Source: Firmicutes bacterium UBA6132
Lineage (GTDB): Bacteria > Bacillota_A > Clostridia > Tissierellales > Sedimentibacteraceae
Assembly (NCBI GenBank): GCA_002435835.1
Contig: DIVM01000280.1
Location: forward strand, 1-13,521
DNA: 13,521 nt
Reading direction: 5' to 3'
Position numbers and translations under genes: made by a program. The notes under the pieces were generated by a model. It made no database searches. It saw only the letters and a program-made list of their open reading frames with translations, and was not told the origin of the DNA. Below are positions 3,355 to 13,521 of this stretch, in pieces (the stretch's first letter is position 1; every line of letters starts with the position of its first letter).

Positions 3355-3380
3355 GTATCTAATTTATTATAAATTTCCTT

Positions 3381-3445
3381 TTTTGCATGCATAATTTTTT
3401 GCATGTGCAAAACAGTGAAGAAAATTTTGCATATTTATCTTTGCA
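3381..3445 (+). promoter_or_regulatory. Array of TTTGCA sites, putative enhancer of the sigma-54 promoter
   Basis: TTTTGCA occurs at 3381-3387, 3397-3403 and 3425-3431, and CTTTGCA at 3439-3445. The second is half of a perfect 7-2-7 palindrome, TTTTGCATGTGCAAAA (3397-3412). The first overlaps TGCATGCA (3384-3391). The array lies 95-160 bp upstream of the -24 element, typical for an activator binding site. It differs from the sites upstream of the opine dehydrogenase, so a different activator is likely. Confidence 0.6.
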
Positions 3446-3539
3446 ATTTATCCTATATGTAACTATTAATTCATTCCATTTTTGTTTAAAAATAAAGGAA
3501 TTATGAAATTTTTTTTATTTCGGCTGTATGTACAAAACT

Positions 3540-3555
3540 TGGCATATTTTTTGCT
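3540..3555 (+). promoter_or_regulatory. Sigma-54 promoter of the small-protein/permease operon
   Basis: TGGCATATTTTTTGCT has GG (3541-3542) and GC (3553-3554) at the exact sigma-54 spacing, with the TTGCT form of the -12 box. The predicted start is near 3566, leaving an approximately 89-nt leader before the first small gene. Confidence 0.87.
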
Positions 3556-3654: not shown

Positions 3655-3912
3655 ATGGAAAATCAAATTAAAAAAATGTATACCTTAGATTGTTTTGGAA
3701 TAATTATATTTACAATTGTTTTATGGATAATCTTAACTGTTATTATGTTAAATATCAGCGAAATTTTGGAAAACCCAACTATTAGAATCATTATATATAC
3801 CATAGGAATTTTTTTGGGAACTATTGCAACAGCTTCATGCACGGCTGTGATTATACATTTAAAGAAAAATCAAAAAAAATTATATAATGATGAAATTTCA
3901 GAAAAGAGATAA
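3655..3912 (+). CDS. Small membrane protein, two predicted TM segments
   Basis: An 85-aa protein of unknown family. Two hydrophobic stretches, at about residues 12-33 and 44-66, predict a hairpin in the membrane. Both tails are charged; the C-terminus is rich in Lys and Glu. The start follows an AAAGGTGGTG ribosome site with proper spacing. It is the first gene after a sigma-54 promoter, and its stop codon overlaps the next start by one base (TAATG). That points to translational coupling with the next two small genes and the permease. It could be an accessory or stabilising subunit of that transporter, but no homologue is recognised, so the role is inferred only from position. Confidence 0.72.
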   Translation: MENQIKKMYTLDCFGIIIFTIVLWIILTVIMLNISEILENPTIRIIIYTIGIFLGTIATASCTAVIIHLKKNQKKLYNDEISEKR

Positions 3913-4205
3913 TGATTATGGAAAATAAAAAAAATAAAATAAATAAAAAAAATAATATAATTTTAGAAATATTTGATTCTATGTTTATTATGATTTTATG
4001 CTTTGCTACACTGCTGAGTGCTATGTTGATGCAAAGTGAAGATGCTAAAATTAGTTATATTATCAATTACAAAACATTATTTATTACATTTATTGGATTA
4101 GCTGTTTATTTAACTTTCATGCTCAGCCAATCACAAAAAGGATTAAATTCAATGATAAAGCATATTTACAAAAATGAAAGCTCAGAAGAGGAGGACGCAA
4201 AATGA
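3912..4205 (+). CDS. Small membrane protein, two predicted TM segments
   Basis: A 97-aa protein of unknown family. A strongly basic Lys/Asn N-terminus precedes two hydrophobic spans, at about residues 17-41 and 52-72. The tail is acidic (SSEEEDAK). The start used overlaps the previous stop by one base; an ATG six bases later (3918) is an equally possible start. The end overlaps the next start by four bases (ATGA). Size, topology and coupling resemble the preceding protein, and the two might form a hetero-oligomer. No known domain is recognised. Confidence 0.7.
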   Translation: MIMENKKNKINKKNNIILEIFDSMFIMILCFATLLSAMLMQSEDAKISYIINYKTLFITFIGLAVYLTFMLSQSQKGLNSMIKHIYKNESSEEEDAK

Positions 4206-4318
4206 GTTTTTGGAGCGTTATGAATAATGTGGCATGGGTTTTGAGCGGTTTGATTGTTTTGTTTTTTATAACAGATTTTATAAAAGTTGAAAAAAGCAGA
4301 TCAAGAGATGAAAAATAA
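4202..4318 (+). CDS. Single-span small membrane protein (38 aa)
   Basis: A 38-aa protein starting MSFWSVMNNVAWVL, with one hydrophobic span at about residues 8-26 and a charged tail (EKSRSRDEK). A strong AGAGGAGGA ribosome site lies about 7 bases before the ATG, inside the end of the preceding gene; the ATGA overlap indicates coupling. The permease begins 30 bp downstream. Size and topology recall the tiny accessory subunits encoded beside bacterial amino-acid and solute symporters (for example MetS-type proteins), but sequence homology is not established. It is easy to miss in automated annotation because it is so short. Confidence 0.72.
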   Translation: MSFWSVMNNVAWVLSGLIVLFFITDFIKVEKSRSRDEK

Positions 4319-4348
4319 ATTGATTTCTTGGAAGGGCAGGATTAAATT

Positions 4349-5719
4349 ATGGAAAAAAACAGTGAATCCCATTTAGCTAAAGTGCTGGGGCCAATGCATG
4401 TATGGGCATTGGGTGTAGGAATAGTATTGGTAGGCCAGTTTATGGGGTGGAACTTCTCAATAGTAAAAGGAGGTTCATTAGGCTCAATTATAGCATGCTG
4501 GACAATTGGAATATTATATATATCTTTAATTATGATTAATACAGAGATGGGTTCAGTCATTCCGGAATCAGGAGGCCAGTATGCAATGGCTAAATATCTG
4601 TTAGGGCCACTTGCTTCTTTCAATGTGGGATTGATGCTGGTTTTCGAGTATGTTATGTTAGAAGCAGCTGATGCTTTAGTAGTAGGTGAAATACTTAAGA
4701 CACTAAGCCCTGATGTTCAGCCGTTGCCGTATATAATTTTAAGCATATTGCTTTTAACATTTATAAATTACAGAGGCGTGCATGCTACGCTAAATTTGAA
4801 TATTATATTAACTGGTATAGCGTTCTTAACTATAATTATATTATTATTCAGTACGAAGTTTTATTCGCCTTCTGAAAGTTTGATTAATTTAAAGGAATTT
4901 ACCAATGGGCTTCCATATGGTTGGATGGGTATTTTAGGAGCTCTCCAATTCGGATGTTGGTTTTACTTAGGAATTGAAGGTACTGCACTTGTTGCAGAAG
5001 AATGCAAATCAACGGGAAGGGCTTTACCTGTAGGATCAATTATGGGCTTGCTTACATTAATAATTGGTGCATCTATTACATGGTTTGTATCATCGGGATT
5101 AGTAGATGCAGAAACTCTCGGCAGTTCTACATACCCTTTATATGATGCAGCTATTGCAACTGGCGGTGTATTAGTAATAAAAATATTGTTTATTGGAACT
5201 ATGCTTTCATGCTTAGCTAGTGCAAATGGATGTATTGCAGATGCCAGTAGGGCTTGGTATTCCATGTCAAAGGACACATTAATACCTAAATCTTTTTCAG
5301 TTCTTCACCCAAAATATAAGACGCCATATAGGGCAATATTGTTTTTAATGCCGATTTCATTAGCATTTGGATTTACAGGTTTGTTGGACCAAGTAATAAC
5401 ATTTTCCATTTTATCAGCACTATTGGTATACATTTTGTGTGCAATTATGATGATTAAATTTCGTAAAATGTACCCGGTAGGGTCTATAGAAAGAGGTTAT
5501 ATGTCACCATGGCATCCAATGCCTTCTGTAATTGTGCTTATATTTTCATGCGCAACATTGTTCGGTATGTACTTTAGCTACTGGATCAATTTAACCGCAG
5601 GATTTGCATTTTATCTTTTAGCATCAGTATGGTTTGTATTCTACCGCTCGAGATTTTTAAACTATGATACATTCATGTCACAAGGATCTTCTAAGTGGTC
5701 GAGACCAAAAGGTTATTAA
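4349..5719 (+). CDS. APC-superfamily permease, ethanolamine-permease-like
   Basis: A 456-aa integral membrane transporter with about 12 hydrophobic segments, full length for the amino acid-polyamine-organocation superfamily. The first segment reads GVGIVLVGQFMGWNF (22-36), followed by GGSLGSI (41-47) and IPESGGQYAMAKYLLGP (71-87). This pattern is closest to the ethanolamine permease (EAT) branch. The glycines of TM1 and the conserved E73/GGQ segment are intact. It probably imports an amino acid or small amine; the substrate cannot be read from sequence. It is the last gene of a sigma-54-driven operon with three small membrane proteins. A fragment resembling residues 137-156 persists upstream at 3281-3345. 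A palindrome (5707-5725) overlaps the stop codon and a clear terminator follows. Confidence 0.88.
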   Translation: MEKNSESHLAKVLGPMHVWALGVGIVLVGQFMGWNFSIVKGGSLGSIIACWTIGILYISLIMINTEMGSVIPESGGQYAMAKYLLGPLASFNVGLMLVFEYVMLEAADALVVGEILKTLSPDVQPLPYIILSILLLTFINYRGVHATLNLNIILTGIAFLTIIILLFSTKFYSPSESLINLKEFTNGLPYGWMGILGALQFGCWFYLGIEGTALVAEECKSTGRALPVGSIMGLLTLIIGASITWFVSSGLVDAETLGSSTYPLYDAAIATGGVLVIKILFIGTMLSCLASANGCIADASRAWYSMSKDTLIPKSFSVLHPKYKTPYRAILFLMPISLAFGFTGLLDQVITFSILSALLVYILCAIMMIKFRKMYPVGSIERGYMSPWHPMPSVIVLIFSCATLFGMYFSYWINLTAGFAFYLLASVWFVFYRSRFLNYDTFMSQGSSKWSRPKGY

Positions 5720-6077: not shown

Positions 6078-6095
6078 TTAATTAAAATAACTTCA

Positions 6096-6172
6096 ACCGA
6101 TAATAGCAAAGCTAATGAAAGTTAGCGACGCAAAGCTACAGGGCCTTTAACATGGCAGCCAGCTACCGAAGA
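6096..6172 (+). ncRNA. Cyclic-di-GMP-I (GEMM) riboswitch aptamer
   Basis: The hallmarks of GEMM-I are present in order. A GCAAA segment precedes hairpin GCTAAT/GTTAGC (6111-6116 with 6121-6126), capped by a GAAA tetraloop (6117-6120). The conserved joiner GACGCAAAGC follows (6127-6136). The second hairpin begins AGCT (6134-6137), carries GGGCC and the CTTTAACATGGCAGCC loop region, and returns at AGCT (6161-6164), followed by ACCGAA. The aptamer senses the second messenger c-di-GMP and controls the exported-protein gene at 6234. The expression platform (6173-6233) has no clear terminator. CTTCAACC (6091-6098) is perfectly complementary to GGTTGAAG (6209-6216), enclosing the aptamer and ending 4 nt before the ribosome site. 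Confidence 0.93.
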
Positions 6173-6233: not shown

Positions 6234-6635
6234 ATGTATAAAAGCATTAAAAAATCAATTTCCCTTATTTTTGTTATGACTTGCATTTTTGCATTATCAG
6301 CACCTGTTGCATTTGCAGCGGAAATATCGGAAAATATTAATGAAGGAATTATGAATCAAATTGACAAAACTAACGATTACGTTTATAAATCCATTGAGAA
6401 GGCTCAAGAAAAAGCAGACAAAGAAGTGATTCAGTCATCACAAAATATTCAAAAACAAGAATCTTTGAATGATTCAATTGATAAAATATGTGATGAATTG
6501 ATCAGTAAAACAGAAAAAAAAGTAGACAAATTAATTGATAAAGCAGCAGAAGTTGGAATTGAAATAGAACGCAAGTATATCGAAGTGCAAATTGCTGACA
6601 GAACAATTTATGTAGATCCATGCTATGCACATTAA
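6234..6635 (+). CDS. Small secreted helical protein under c-di-GMP riboswitch control
   Basis: A 133-aa protein with a classic signal peptide: basic MYKSIKKS, a hydrophobic core, and AFA before a likely signal peptidase I cut after residue 28. The mature part is highly charged (Lys/Glu/Asp/Ile), without Gly and with a single Pro, and should be mostly amphipathic helix or coiled coil up to about residue 115. It ends with a short beta-like segment, VQIADRTIYVDPCYAH. No enzyme motif is seen. GEMM-I riboswitches in Clostridia commonly control surface or secreted proteins, so a role in the cell envelope or attachment is reasonable but unproven. The start follows an ACGGAGG site at 6221. The next gene, 120 bp on, encodes a probable c-di-GMP phosphodiesterase. 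Confidence 0.82.
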   Translation: MYKSIKKSISLIFVMTCIFALSAPVAFAAEISENINEGIMNQIDKTNDYVYKSIEKAQEKADKEVIQSSQNIQKQESLNDSIDKICDELISKTEKKVDKLIDKAAEVGIEIERKYIEVQIADRTIYVDPCYAH

Positions 6636-9115: not shown

Positions 9116-10006
9116 ATGGTAGATGAAAAACGATTTGCAGTTTTAATTGATGCTGATAATGTATCAGCAAAATATATAAAGTACATATTAGATGAAATAT
9201 CAAACTATGGTGTTGCAACATATAAAAGAATATATGGAGATTGGACGAAATCAAATACGTCATCATGGAAGGATGTATTGTTAGAAAATTCAGTGACACC
9301 TATACAACAATATGGTTATACAGTAGGTAAAAACGCAACAGATTCAGCAATGATTATAGATGCAATGGATATACTATATTCTAAAAATGTTGAAGGTTTT
9401 TGTATTGTTTCAAGTGATAGCGATTTTACAAAATTATCATCTAGACTTCGTGAATCAGGTATGTTTGTAGTTGGAATGGGAGAAAAGAAAACACCAAAAC
9501 CATTTATAGCATCATGTAATCAGTTTAAATATCTTGATGTTCTGGCAGCTTCAGGGGAAAATAATATAGAAATTGAAGAAAATCAGATAGATGTGCATAA
9601 AAACCAAACAACCCAAAGTAATGTAGGTGCTTTAAATAATTCAATTGAAAGTAAAAGTACAATTATTCATGATAAAAATGATAATGTAAAAGTTATGACA
9701 GACATTAAAACAATTCAGAATGCTATTATTAAGATGTTAAATGAAATTGATTTAGAAGATCAGAGCATTAATATGGGAGAACTTGGCGATAAATTGGTCA
9801 AAAGATATCCTGATTTTGATGTAAGAAATTATGGTGATACTAAATTATCAAAGTTCTTAAAAAAGTTTGATTTTCTTGATATCCATACAAAGGGCAAGGA
9901 AGGTAAATCTTTGTGGATTTCCTTAAAATCAAATAATACGGGGCAGCCTGAAGTAAAGAATATCAATCCCCAGAAAAAGAGAAAAAAATATTATAAAAAG
10001 AAGTAA
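9116..10006 (+). CDS. NYN-domain ribonuclease-like protein with C-terminal OST-HTH (LOTUS) domain
   Basis: A 296-aa cytosolic protein. Residues about 5-142 form a NYN/LabA-type PIN-like nuclease domain. Its acidic metal-binding residues are in LIDADN (10-15), TDSAMIIDAMD (75-85) and SSDSDFTKL (99-107). An acidic/Asn-rich linker (145-195) leads to an OST-HTH/LOTUS domain (about 197-270), a fold linked to RNA binding. The tail is strongly basic (KKRKKYYKKK). This two-domain layout is widespread in bacteria; family knowledge suggests RNA cleavage or RNA turnover, but targets are unknown. The GAAAGGATT ribosome site is well placed. The promoter at 9021 is perfect consensus. The PrsW-type protease gene starts 100 bp downstream without an obvious terminator and may be co-transcribed. 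Confidence 0.88.
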   Translation: MVDEKRFAVLIDADNVSAKYIKYILDEISNYGVATYKRIYGDWTKSNTSSWKDVLLENSVTPIQQYGYTVGKNATDSAMIIDAMDILYSKNVEGFCIVSSDSDFTKLSSRLRESGMFVVGMGEKKTPKPFIASCNQFKYLDVLAASGENNIEIEENQIDVHKNQTTQSNVGALNNSIESKSTIIHDKNDNVKVMTDIKTIQNAIIKMLNEIDLEDQSINMGELGDKLVKRYPDFDVRNYGDTKLSKFLKKFDFLDIHTKGKEGKSLWISLKSNNTGQPEVKNINPQKKRKKYYKKK

Positions 10007-11588: not shown

Positions 11589-12962
11589 ATGTCTTTGTAT
11601 AATGAATTAAATTACATAGATGGTATTACTATAATAGATAAAGAAGGCTTAATTCTTTTTACTGTCAAATTTAACCCCGATATTGATAAAAAAATGGAAG
11701 AATCTATAGTAGGAAAAAACTTATTTGATGTATTTTATAATATAAGTAAATCAAATAGTTCTCTTTTTGAATGTATGGAAAAAGACAAGCTTATAGAGAG
11801 AAAAGGTCAATATGTTAAAAATTTATATGTAGATGATTCGATTACAGATAATATTTCTATACCTATTAAACATGGAGGTCTTATTGTTGGTGCTATAGAG
11901 CTTTCTAAAGTCATAGCTGATTATGATGATCACGTAAATGAACTACATGATGATAGCGCTGTAATGAAATTGAAGCCTAAATGTCTCAATATGGGTTATA
12001 ATGCAAGATATAATTTAGACAATATAATTTGCAAAGATAAAAATATGGTCAAATTGGTTGAATATGCAGATCATGTAGCTAAATCTAATTCTCCCATATT
12101 TATTACAGGAGAAACTGGTACAGGAAAAGAACTTTTTGCAAATGGTATTCACAATGCATCAAATCGGAAAGATAAGCCTTTTATTGCACAAAATTGTTCT
12201 GCTGTTCCGGAAAACCTTTTGGAAAGTATATTCTTTGGAACAAGTAAAGGAAGTTATACAGGTGCTCTTGATAGAAAAGGATTGTTTGAAGCTTGTGATG
12301 GTGGAACTTTATTTTTAGATGAACTTCATTGTATGCCATTACATTTACAGGCAAAGCTTTTAAGGGCAATTGAAGATAAGTCTGCAAGAAGAATAGGTGA
12401 AAATAAAGAACATAATTTTGATGTAAGAATTATTGCAGCAACTAATATAAAAAACGATGAAATTCTCAATAATGGGTTTATAAGGCAGGATTTATATTAC
12501 AGGCTTTCTGTTGTAAAAATAGATATTCCACCATTAAGGGAACGTTTAGAAGATATAAAGGTTTTATCAAATTATTTTATTAAAAAATACAATAATATTT
12601 TTGAAAAAAACGTAACTTCTATATCACCAGAAGTCAGTCGTTTTATGCTAACTTATGACTGGCCAGGAAATATTAGGGAACTTGAAAACTTTATAGAATC
12701 TGCGATACTTAATGTTTCAAAAGAAAAAATTACAATAGATGAAAAAGAAGCTAAAGAAGTTAACAATATATTTAATGATGATTTTTTAAAAACAAAATCA
12801 TTAAAAAATATATTAGAAAATACTGAATTAAATTTACTTGAAGAAGCACTTTTGATTTCAAAAGGTAATGTTACTAAGGCTGCAGAATATTTAGAAATAC
12901 CACGTCAAACTTTACAACAAAAAATGTTAAAGTATAATATTAATTTAAAATATAAAAGTTAA
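11589..12962 (+). CDS. Sigma-54-dependent transcriptional activator (PAS-like/AAA+/Fis HTH)
   Basis: A 457-aa enhancer-binding protein with three parts. Residues about 5-110 form a PAS-like sensor (IDGITIIDKEGLILF; then IPIKHGGLIVGAIELSKVI). The AAA+ domain (about 145-380) has Walker A GETGTGKE (174-181), the sigma-54-contacting loop GSYTGA (221-226, usually GAFTGA), Walker B LFLDE (241-245), sensor I AATN (283-286), an arginine-finger region (R299/R305) and sensor II WPGNIREL (358-365). A Fis-type helix-turn-helix occupies about 415-455. There is no receiver domain, so it probably responds to a small ligand. A strong AAGGAAGG site precedes the start. Three matching palindromes and a sigma-54 promoter follow the gene, so the adjacent lipoprotein operon is the likely target. 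It might also act on the two sigma-54 promoters on the left, but their putative sites differ. Confidence 0.93.
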   Translation: MSLYNELNYIDGITIIDKEGLILFTVKFNPDIDKKMEESIVGKNLFDVFYNISKSNSSLFECMEKDKLIERKGQYVKNLYVDDSITDNISIPIKHGGLIVGAIELSKVIADYDDHVNELHDDSAVMKLKPKCLNMGYNARYNLDNIICKDKNMVKLVEYADHVAKSNSPIFITGETGTGKELFANGIHNASNRKDKPFIAQNCSAVPENLLESIFFGTSKGSYTGALDRKGLFEACDGGTLFLDELHCMPLHLQAKLLRAIEDKSARRIGENKEHNFDVRIIAATNIKNDEILNNGFIRQDLYYRLSVVKIDIPPLRERLEDIKVLSNYFIKKYNNIFEKNVTSISPEVSRFMLTYDWPGNIRELENFIESAILNVSKEKITIDEKEAKEVNNIFNDDFLKTKSLKNILENTELNLLEEALLISKGNVTKAAEYLEIPRQTLQQKMLKYNINLKYKS

Positions 12963-12987
12963 ATGCCGTAAAAACGGCATTTTTTTT
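12961..12987 (+). terminator. Terminator of the activator gene, stem doubles as palindromic site 1
   Basis: AAATGCCGT (12961-12969) pairs with ACGGCATTT (12974-12982) around AAAA, with T running to 12987. The stem starts one base before the stop codon ends. Its core TGCCGT-N4-ACGGCA (12964-12979) equals the two palindromes downstream, so the DNA may serve both as terminator and as activator binding site. Confidence 0.85.
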
Positions 12988-12996
12988 ACTATAAAC

Positions 12997-13063
12997 TGCT
13001 GTATTTACGGCATTTTGTGAAAACGGTTGCTAATAGTATAAATTAACTGCCGTATTTACGGCG
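12997..13063 (+). promoter_or_regulatory. Tandem palindromic enhancer sites (TGCCGT-N4-ACGGCA)
   Basis: TGCTGTATTTACGGCA (12997-13012, one mismatch in the left arm) and TGCCGTATTTACGGCG (13048-13063) share the core of the palindrome at 12964-12979. Centres are spaced about 33 and 51 bp, close to 3 and 5 helical turns, so all three lie on one face of the DNA. They lie about 140-240 bp before a sigma-54 promoter and next to an activator gene, so they are probably its upstream activating sequences. Their high GC stands out in an AT-rich region. Confidence 0.78.
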
Positions 13064-13147
13064 TATAAATAAATTAGTAATATTTTATTATTTTTTTTTT
13101 GAATATTTAATTTTATGAAATGACAAAAAATGCTGAATTTTCCAATG

Positions 13148-13165
13148 ATATAATCATGATTATAT
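13148..13165. repeat. Perfect 18-bp AT-rich palindrome
   Basis: ATATAATCATGATTATAT is self-complementary and lies between the enhancer sites and the sigma-54 promoter. It could bind a bending or regulatory protein, or be chance in AT-rich DNA. Confidence 0.4.
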
Positions 13166-13199
13166 ATTTTGTTTTATTATATTATTATCTTTTTTAAGT

Positions 13200-13215
13200 T
13201 GGTATGAAAATTGCT
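13200..13215 (+). promoter_or_regulatory. Sigma-54 promoter of the lipoprotein gene
   Basis: TGGTATGAAAATTGCT has GG (13201-13202) and GC (13213-13214) at exact sigma-54 spacing; the -24 box has T for C at one position. The start is expected near 13226, giving an approximately 185-nt leader. Confidence 0.82.
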
Positions 13216-13356
13216 ATTCTATTATTAATAGAATTTAATTATTCTAAGGAGTAAAAGTAATTTAAGACATTTGTATGTCAGAAATAATAAATGATAAGGA
13301 GGGAATTATTACAAAACTTTAAAATAGTATTACGTATTGTTACGAGATACTATTTT
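13216..13356 (+). promoter_or_regulatory. Structured leader of the lipoprotein transcript
   Basis: The palindrome ATTCTATTATTAATAGAAT (13216-13234) spans the predicted start point. GACAT/ATGTC (13266-13270 with 13275-13279) follows. A larger hairpin pairs 13321-13330 with 13347-13356 (10 bp), with an inner CGTA/TACG stem. An unused Shine-Dalgarno-like AAGGAGGG sits at 13297-13303. No T-tract follows the hairpin. These could be an operator and mRNA structures; no known riboswitch is recognised. Confidence 0.4.
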
Positions 13357-13410
13357 ATGAAAAAACATAGTACTAAAAAAAGAGGACAAGTTAAAAATAG
13401 GAGGAATCAC

Positions 13411-13521
13411 ATGAAATCAAGAATAATAGCGCTAATAATGGCAGCATTAATGGTTGTTGGAACACTTTCGGGATGTTCAAGTAATACAAACGCTAACCAA
13501 CCTGCAGGTAACACTGATACT
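13411..13521 (+). CDS. Lipoprotein, N-terminal fragment (runs off window)
   Basis: The first 37 residues are a type II signal peptide: basic MKSR, hydrophobic IIALIMAALMVVG, lipobox LSGC with Cys22 as the lipidation site, then a Ser/Asn/Pro linker typical of solute-binding lipoproteins. The ATG at 13411 has an AGGAGG site 7 bases upstream. The open frame extends in phase to an ATG at 13291, but that would destroy the signal peptide, so it is rejected. The gene is cut by the window end. Position behind a sigma-54 promoter and enhancer sites suggests a substrate-binding protein of an ABC or TRAP uptake system. That last step is inference. Confidence 0.82.
   Translation, partial: MKSRIIALIMAALMVVGTLSGCSSNTNANQPAGNTDT

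Follow-up and report, generated by a model that had tools for sequence, protein, structure and literature searches.

Positions 11,589 to 13,521 of a 13,521-nucleotide stretch of DNA from Firmicutes bacterium UBA6132 (contig DIVM01000280.1; the whole stretch is hereafter called the window) hold a gene for a sigma-54-dependent activator, three palindromic sites, a -24/-12 promoter element and the start of a lipoprotein gene. Our preferred reading, to which we give a probability of roughly three in four, is that a one-component PAS-type sigma-54 activator drives the adjacent transporter gene or operon through the palindromes, and that a hairpin formed by the sites ends the activator's own transcript. 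A sigma-54 activator with a local target is a circuit of a well-known kind; the less ordinary part is that putative enhancer sites double as the activator's terminator hairpin. As judged by comparative signs, such sharing of one sequence between enhancer and terminator is seen repeatedly in this activator family, and is widespread in the members that we call ornithine-type.

The activator gene (11589..12962, plus strand) encodes 457 amino acids and was recognised as a bacterial enhancer-binding protein from the open reading frame (ORF) listing and Pfam. As the first-pass annotation had noted, palindromes follow it directly: the ORF ends at 12962 and candidate enhancer site 1, TGCCGTAAAAACGGCA, occupies 12964..12979. 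The same annotation spoke of three copies of TGCCGT-N4-ACGGCA. Site 1 is indeed exact, and identical in the nearest relative (genome G001), but candidate sites 2 (TGCTGTATTTACGGCA, 12997..13012) and 3 (TGCCGTATTTACGGCG, 13048..13063) each carry one mismatch; no strand is assigned to any of the three. With up to two mismatches allowed, shuffled sequences contain 0.07 copies on average, and three copies were reached in 0 of 200 shuffles. Start-to-start spacings are 33 and 51 bp, or 3.14 and 4.86 turns at 10.5 bp per turn, so the description 'near whole helical turns' is a fair one; the spacings in the window and its relatives (33, 51, 32, 51, 32, 73 and 53 bp), few of which are independent, all fall within 0.15 turn of a whole number. 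The sites end 220, 187 and 136 bp upstream of the -24 element, which is within the range usual for Clostridiales, whose enhancer sites, according to the main text of PMC6615313, mostly lie 100-250 bp upstream of the sigma-54 promoter.

The promoter claimed upstream of the lipoprotein gene is borne out by a perfect -24/-12 element on the plus strand, TTGGTATGAAAATTGCT (13199..13215), in full agreement with YTGGYRYNNNNNTTGCW; 0.04 such matches are expected in the whole window and three were found. A leader of about 185 nt separates it from the lipoprotein gene (13411..13521, plus strand), which runs off the end of the window after its first 37 codons; its ATG at 13411 was placed from the G001 relative and its lipobox cysteine was recognised by eye. 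By its relatives, the product would be a family-5 solute-binding protein of an oligopeptide/dipeptide/nickel-type ATP-binding cassette (ABC) transporter: Pfam SBP_bac_5 was found on the relative in genome G009, which is 68% identical to the protein of genome G011, and in an NCBIfam scan of the latter every match fell below its cut-off.

Site 1 is also the stem of a terminator-like structure. Directly after the activator stop codon, a 9-bp stem with a 4-nt loop is followed by eight T residues (12961..12987, plus strand); the hairpin itself (12961-12982) has a predicted energy of -11.2 kcal/mol (z -4.0), and this combination of stable hairpin and T-run is what would be expected of an intrinsic terminator. 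In RNA, sites 1 and 2 could also pair with each other, the joint fold reaching -23.1 kcal/mol. A permissive terminator scan flags copy 1 on the minus strand as well, copy 2 on the plus strand with the tail TTTTGTGAAA and copy 3 on the minus strand with the tail AGTTAATTTA. A scan against Rfam gave no match at the activator locus.

We searched 249 genomes of the order for orthologues of the activator (E<=1e-130) and found them in four: G001, G011, G012 and G007. In G007 the contig ends inside the activator gene, leaving its flanks unreadable. Palindromes accompany the orthologue in all three readable genomes. G001, which is the nearest genome with 27% of sampled words shared with the window, has three sites, the same promoter element, identical in sequence, and the same lipoprotein; its contig is record JARBUP010000155.1. 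In G011 the three sites are degenerate (they start at 9364, 9396 and 9469 of locus L022 and have 2, 3 and 1 mismatches respectively), and the first of them contains the activator stop codon; a sigma-54 element (TTGGTACGGTTATTGCT) and a related lipoprotein are kept. In G012 there is no site array behind the activator, whose gene comes 267 nt after three genes in a row: one of the alanine-dehydrogenase family, one ornithine-racemase-like but below the cut-off of that family, and one MmgE/PrpD-like by eye. Two palindromes 53 bp apart stand upstream of this row, away from the activator, within about 230 bp before a full sigma-54 element, where approximately 0.006 would be predicted from the 63 matches in 2.3 Mb. 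The type of site thus seems to travel with the activator and to stay before a sigma-54 element when the target changes. From these comparisons we regard it as very likely that the activator uses the palindromes as its enhancer sites.

The overlap of site and terminator is less stable. That site 1 serves as the stem of the activator's terminator, as first proposed, holds in the window but is not conserved at the same place: the T-run is lost in G001, and in G011 the terminator-like structure involves site 3 instead, at the top of a long stem with T8 behind it (-28.5 kcal/mol), so that the exact overlap has not been kept. The G012 sites are without a long T-run. A site nevertheless falls within a terminator-like structure in two of the three genomes with an array behind the activator (window, G001 and G011).

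To place the window in its family we gathered 20 loci and 31 of 40 further loci (partial matches left out), giving 48 with the window after removal of four duplicates. In 37 of the 48, the 700 nt downstream of the activator stop codon contain a sigma-54 element matching at 16 or more of 17 positions; among the 11 others are L004 and L036, each with at most 124 nt of flank. The tandem layout of activator, sites and promoter is therefore ordinary in this family, and the 'self-contained' circuit of the first-pass annotation, real as a layout, is nothing special, as the groups described in the main text of PMC6615313 also indicate. Most targets are, by sequence, 3,5-diaminohexanoate dehydrogenase (lysine fermentation) or 2,4-diaminopentanoate dehydrogenase (ornithine fermentation); those tested, one of the former and two of the latter, all pass their NCBIfam cut-offs.

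When activators are typed by helix-turn-helix (HTH) segment and target gene, the sites differ in sequence from type to type and share, by eye, a common frame GC-N10-GC. Lysine-type activators (HTH PRQTLQYK) go with TGCC-N8-GGCA, ornithine-type activators (mostly KRQTLQHK) with GCAA-N6-TTGC, alanine-dehydrogenase-type activators (PRQTLQRK) with GCCC-N6-GAGC, and the window type (PRQTLQQK) with TGCCGT-N4-ACGGCA. A script located the lysine-type site in 14 of the 17 loci. Reading overran the true stop codon at L014, L015 and L037 and shortened their spacers, which explains one of the three misses, L015, where the site is visible in the read-through peptide. The best terminator overlaps the lysine-type site in only one of these 14 loci, and weakly (-6.7 kcal/mol); ten of the remaining 13 have a separate terminator and three have none. 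Overlap is thus not an unavoidable result of placing a palindrome behind a gene. Inspection of eight alanine-dehydrogenase-type loci by eye showed that in seven an inverted pair likewise makes a hairpin behind the stop codon, the T-run being poorer in most.

It is in the ornithine-type activators that the overlap is most regular. This set comprised 41 loci (30 plus 11), or 39 after removal of two duplicates, and a script detected two GCAA-N6-TTGC sites, each with at most one mismatch, in 34 of the 39. Two of the five misses (L043 and L046, on the same contigs as L171 and L170) do have a pair, with the stop codon falling within its first site; at L027 the copies occur singly and apart, and L106 and L132 have none. 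In all 34 loci with a pair, the best terminator-like hairpin spans both sites, and the 10 nt that follow it contain 7.3 T on average versus 3.6 in the rest of the spacers. At L169-L174 and L176-L178, translation of the activator stops within the first enhancer-type site (as in GCA AAA TAA TTT GC), so that the same bases serve coding end, site and hairpin.

The pair is not confined to these loci. Searching the 249 genomes for the pair pattern returned 89 with a match, against a single genome for the reversed control. Matches occur in 81 of 103 genomes with an ornithine-type activator match at E<=1e-100, a threshold that other activator types also pass, versus 8 of 146 others; seven of those eight were opened (G234 was left out) and had no sigma-54 element in the stretch examined. 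Combining 100 and a further nine loci, we collected 78 elements in which the pair is exact and a sigma-54 element lies no more than 350 nt away; 71 of these elements are distinct. By script, 61 of the 71 lie between -12 and +50 nt from an activator stop codon. Of the remaining ten, five proved on inspection to abut or overlap the end of an activator-type ORF, which raises the total to 66 of 71; one of the last five sits at a contig edge and the other four lie elsewhere. At least six T residues are found in the next 10 nt in 58 of the 71. On this comparative evidence, enhancer-type sites that form a terminator-like hairpin beside the activator stop codon are widespread in ornithine-type activators.

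In the 30 distinct elements of the smaller set, the two base pairs flanking the half-sites are standard (G-U included) at a frequency of 0.90 within the same locus versus 0.42 when the arms are combined across loci, a value that 0 of 20000 permutations reach. The second flanking position passes through all four Watson-Crick types (AU 13, CG 5, GC 4 and UA 4, with 4 others). A structure counter found 69 doubly changed cells in these elements compared with 30.0 +/- 3.4 after shuffling (0 of 500 as high), and slid registers all scored far lower. The 71-element set gives the same picture: own pairing is 0.923 at the two flanking positions versus 0.440 +/- 0.038 when permuted, and 0.836 versus 0.582 at the inner six positions, again with 0 of 20000 permutations in each case, these permutations taking no account of the relatedness of the genomes. 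The search required the half-sites but not the flanking pairs. Flanking pairs that change on both sides argue for a folded strand rather than for protein contact, and constant half-sites would point to protein. With own pairing at 0.92 against 0.44, one ornithine-type element thus appears to be selected both as an enhancer and as an RNA hairpin.

A stronger version of this idea is a class of composite enhancer-terminators: in this activator family one sequence would be selected both as the DNA enhancer of the target promoter and as the RNA terminator of the activator gene, with protein binding fixing the half-sites and base pairing the remainder of the stem, which would physically couple enhancer occupancy to synthesis of the activator. 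We put this forward tentatively, as less likely than not. Not far behind it in probability, if still unlikely, is an account in which the palindromes are enhancer sites and the hairpin is a mere by-product of a GC-rich palindrome beside T-rich DNA, without function at this locus. The loss of the T-run in G001, the AT-rich genome and the lysine-type loci, where the best terminator misses the site in 13 of 14 cases, are all as a by-product would predict; the appearance of a different site within a strong terminator in G011 is not, and the covariation of the ornithine-type flanks is left unexplained by a protein site alone.

The first-pass annotation had also suggested that occupancy might affect read-through. 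Regulation of this kind, in which bound activator would block or release polymerase at its own terminator, or transcription would sweep the activator off the enhancer, would amount to built-in feedback. What speaks for it is geometry only, in that polymerase transcribing an ornithine-type locus must cross both sites before the expected point of release; a terminator at this position is more simply explained by the need to insulate a promoter that is strictly activated, and we consider occupancy feedback improbable. Least probable of all is that the palindromes are RNA elements only (terminators, processing or mRNA-stability hairpins) with the true enhancer sites elsewhere: hairpins do form by the activator 3' end from site 1 and from the ornithine-type pairs, and the permissive scan flags sites 2 and 3, but the three copies in the window are nearly identical, with only short T-runs at sites 2 and 3, G012 has two copies before a sigma-54 element, away from the activator 3' end and with no long T-run, and the sites change with activator type within a common frame.

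Several observations weigh against our preferred reading, in which the palindromes act as enhancers and a site hairpin ends the activator transcript. In G001, which is 95% identical here, the palindrome is followed by TTCTTAATTAA, and the T-run is gone. The pair formed by the window and G001 also carries little site-specific signal: differences fall at 1 of 36 half-site positions, 2 of 12 spacer positions and 10 of 60 linker positions, yet 13071-13198, which separates site 3 from the promoter, is just as conserved (3 of 128), so this comparison alone does not single out the sites. Nor does the G001 genome as a whole contain an excess of the palindrome at up to two mismatches (28 matches versus 36 for the control). 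The segment PRQTLQQK occurs in more distant proteins too, whose flanks were not seen, and the link between HTH and site therefore rests on few window-type loci. For the ornithine-type elements, constancy of the half-sites in the 71-element set follows from its construction (the 30-element set allowed up to one mismatch per site), and 13 of the 71 have fewer than six T residues in the next 10 nt. Pairs that are not directly behind an activator gene can keep both hairpin and T-run, as in G063 and G064, where a short opposite-strand ORF lies between activator and pair, and in G018, where the pair is upstream of the activator. As for other displaced elements, the pair in G033, not directly behind the activator, has no T-run, that in G014 keeps hairpin and T-run 181 nt behind the stop codon, and the sequence of G044 ends at the contig edge. 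Taken together, these natural controls speak in part against reading the pairs purely as terminators.

We also considered whether the palindrome marks a genome-wide regulon, and rejected this. Matches at up to two mismatches are mostly not above those of the reversed-pattern control (28 versus 36 in G001, 63 versus 66 in G012, 74 versus 81 in G006 and 134 versus 143 in G009), being slightly above it in G011 (127 versus 95) and G007 (138 versus 119). A relaxed pattern matches 14 times in G001, and only the three sites of this locus have GT and AC in both arms. Four single matches elsewhere (G011 contigs C30, C96 and C100, and G007 contig C49) all lie within ORFs and were taken as chance; at three of the four, a sequence weakly resembling a sigma-54 element (15 or 16 of 17) lies 65-270 bp away, the distance in C96 being counted from a second, 2-mismatch site, and these weak elements are likewise within ORFs.

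The domain architecture of the activator is that of a one-component PAS-type sigma-54 enhancer-binding protein, as judged from profile matches and a structural model. A putative PAS-fold sensor domain spans residues ~1-111 (11589..11921, plus strand): an AlphaFold model of residues 1-141 has a mean predicted local distance difference test (pLDDT) score of 77.9, and its best match in the PDB is the PAS domain of NifL (E 3.4e-5); a Pfam scan found no PAS family at E<=0.001. The AAA+ sigma-54 interaction domain covers residues 146-311 (12024..12521, plus strand; Pfam PF00158, Sigma54_activat, E 5.6e-62), Pfam also identifies an AAA_lid_14 domain, and a Fis-type HTH is encoded at 12813..12935 (plus strand; PF02954, HTH_8, E 5.9e-10), with the recognition segment, named by eye, IPRQTLQQKM, which is widely kept among relatives. 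The loop of the activator reads GSYTGA by eye, a variant of GAFTGA; the main text of PMC6615313 accepts variants such as GSFTGA and GAYTGA for Clostridiales enhancer-binding proteins. The protein is not PrdR: it scores 352.9 bits against NCBIfam NF041552, whose curated cut-off is 795, and aligns only from position 145 of 577, leaving the N-terminal part of the PrdR profile unmatched. Relatives named by their sources include Sedimentibacter proteins, and several sources give relatives of the activator the name 'arginine utilization regulatory protein'. A sigma-54 gene was found in 24 of 25 genomes of the genus.

In the scheme that we favour, the sites, the promoter element, their conservation alongside orthologues and the ornithine-type covariation are what the sequences show, and binding, looping, termination in vivo and the ligand are the steps that we infer. 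The activator would be present at a basal level, its PAS domain sensing an intracellular ligand, probably an amino acid or a peptide product. Once activated by ligand, the protein would bind the three GC-N10-GC palindromic enhancer sites, placed near whole turns apart, and contact sigma-54 polymerase at 13199-13215 by DNA looping, opening the promoter of the transporter (the solute-binding lipoprotein). Transcription of the activator gene itself, which presumably starts at a housekeeping promoter, would end at the hairpin of site 1 or of sites 1 and 2, and this hairpin would insulate a sigma-54 promoter that must stay silent without the activator.

Some features around these genes deserve mention in their own right. 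The stretch from site 3 to the promoter is near-invariant relative to G001, and the leader at 13226-13398 differs at 37 of 173 positions. G001 has two additional ORFs between a nitroreductase-like gene and the activator (L083, 2538-4095) that the window does not have. In G011, the region 6344-11704 of L084 carries a second lipoprotein gene, 83% identical, which is preceded by a gene of the alanine-dehydrogenase family and by two glycine/sarcosine/betaine-reductase B genes; a full sigma-54 element lies at 6344, and the region has another activator gene as well. The lipoprotein relatives in G006 and G009 were considered as members of the same circuit and rejected: they have a sigma-54 element and are followed by permease- and ATPase-like genes (one permease was checked), but a different, divergent activator adjoins them and there is no such palindrome, so the activator of this transporter seems to have changed.

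Elsewhere in the window there are two more perfect sigma-54 elements on the plus strand. One (281-297) precedes an octopine-dehydrogenase-family gene (from 348) and then MmgE/PrpD (from 1851); the other (3539-3555) precedes two small ORFs and an amino-acid permease (3655-5719). As neither is accompanied by the TGCCGT palindrome, other activators probably serve them. A different palindrome, TTTTGCATGTGCAAAA, lies with a partial copy at ~3380-3415, upstream of the second element, and is, by eye, a candidate site of another activator. A cyclic di-GMP-I riboswitch occupies 6095-6170 on the plus strand (Rfam, 64.1 bits versus a gathering threshold of 35), and downstream of it is an ORF of 133 amino acids with a signal-peptide-like start (6234-6635).

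The window circuit is thus an ordinary member of a well-populated family. For the ornithine-type activators, comparison suggests that in many genomes of this anaerobic order the gene closes with a hairpin, each arm of which is a site through which the activator itself would act. Should these sites be proved to be enhancers, they would offer a clean case of one sequence under two different selections that can be separated base by base, and the question arises whether transcribing the activator gene disturbs, or is blocked by, activator bound at its end. Paired sites beside a stop codon also provide a practical motif for locating the enhancers of uncharacterised activators. Titles and the beginnings of abstracts in the open-licence PMC literature, searched with a few terms, gave no description of a shared enhancer and terminator, which is weak evidence of novelty.

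Among known systems, the closest are the groups of Clostridiales enhancer-binding proteins, such as OrdR and XcyR, defined by Nie, Dong and Yang (2019, PMC6615313). As there, PAS-AAA+-Fis activators lie mostly beside their target operons, and many groups have multiple enhancer sites; unlike the window, Table 1 of that paper names no family-5 solute-binding protein as a target. Its main text does not use the word 'terminator'. RocR of Bacillus subtilis is likewise a sigma-54 activator, of arginine use, and its enhancer between rocG and rocABC lies at the 3' end of one gene and serves promoters on either side (main text of PMC4941409); that enhancer follows a target gene rather than the activator gene, and the word 'terminator' is absent from this main text too. 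The OrdR-type activators of ornithine fermentation, so named here for their target gene, share the arrangement of activator, inverted-repeat sites, sigma-54 element and target, and the two ord genes tested pass their NCBIfam cut-off. They differ in that their GCAA-N6-TTGC sites come as pairs 21-24 bp apart, both copies together folding into one hairpin, whereas in the window a single copy folds on itself. A likeness outside transcription activation is found in Neisseria and Haemophilus, where inverted DNA-uptake sequences serve as terminators: there too a DNA-recognition sequence doubles as the stem of an intrinsic terminator, although what is recognised is a signal for DNA uptake and not a transcription enhancer.

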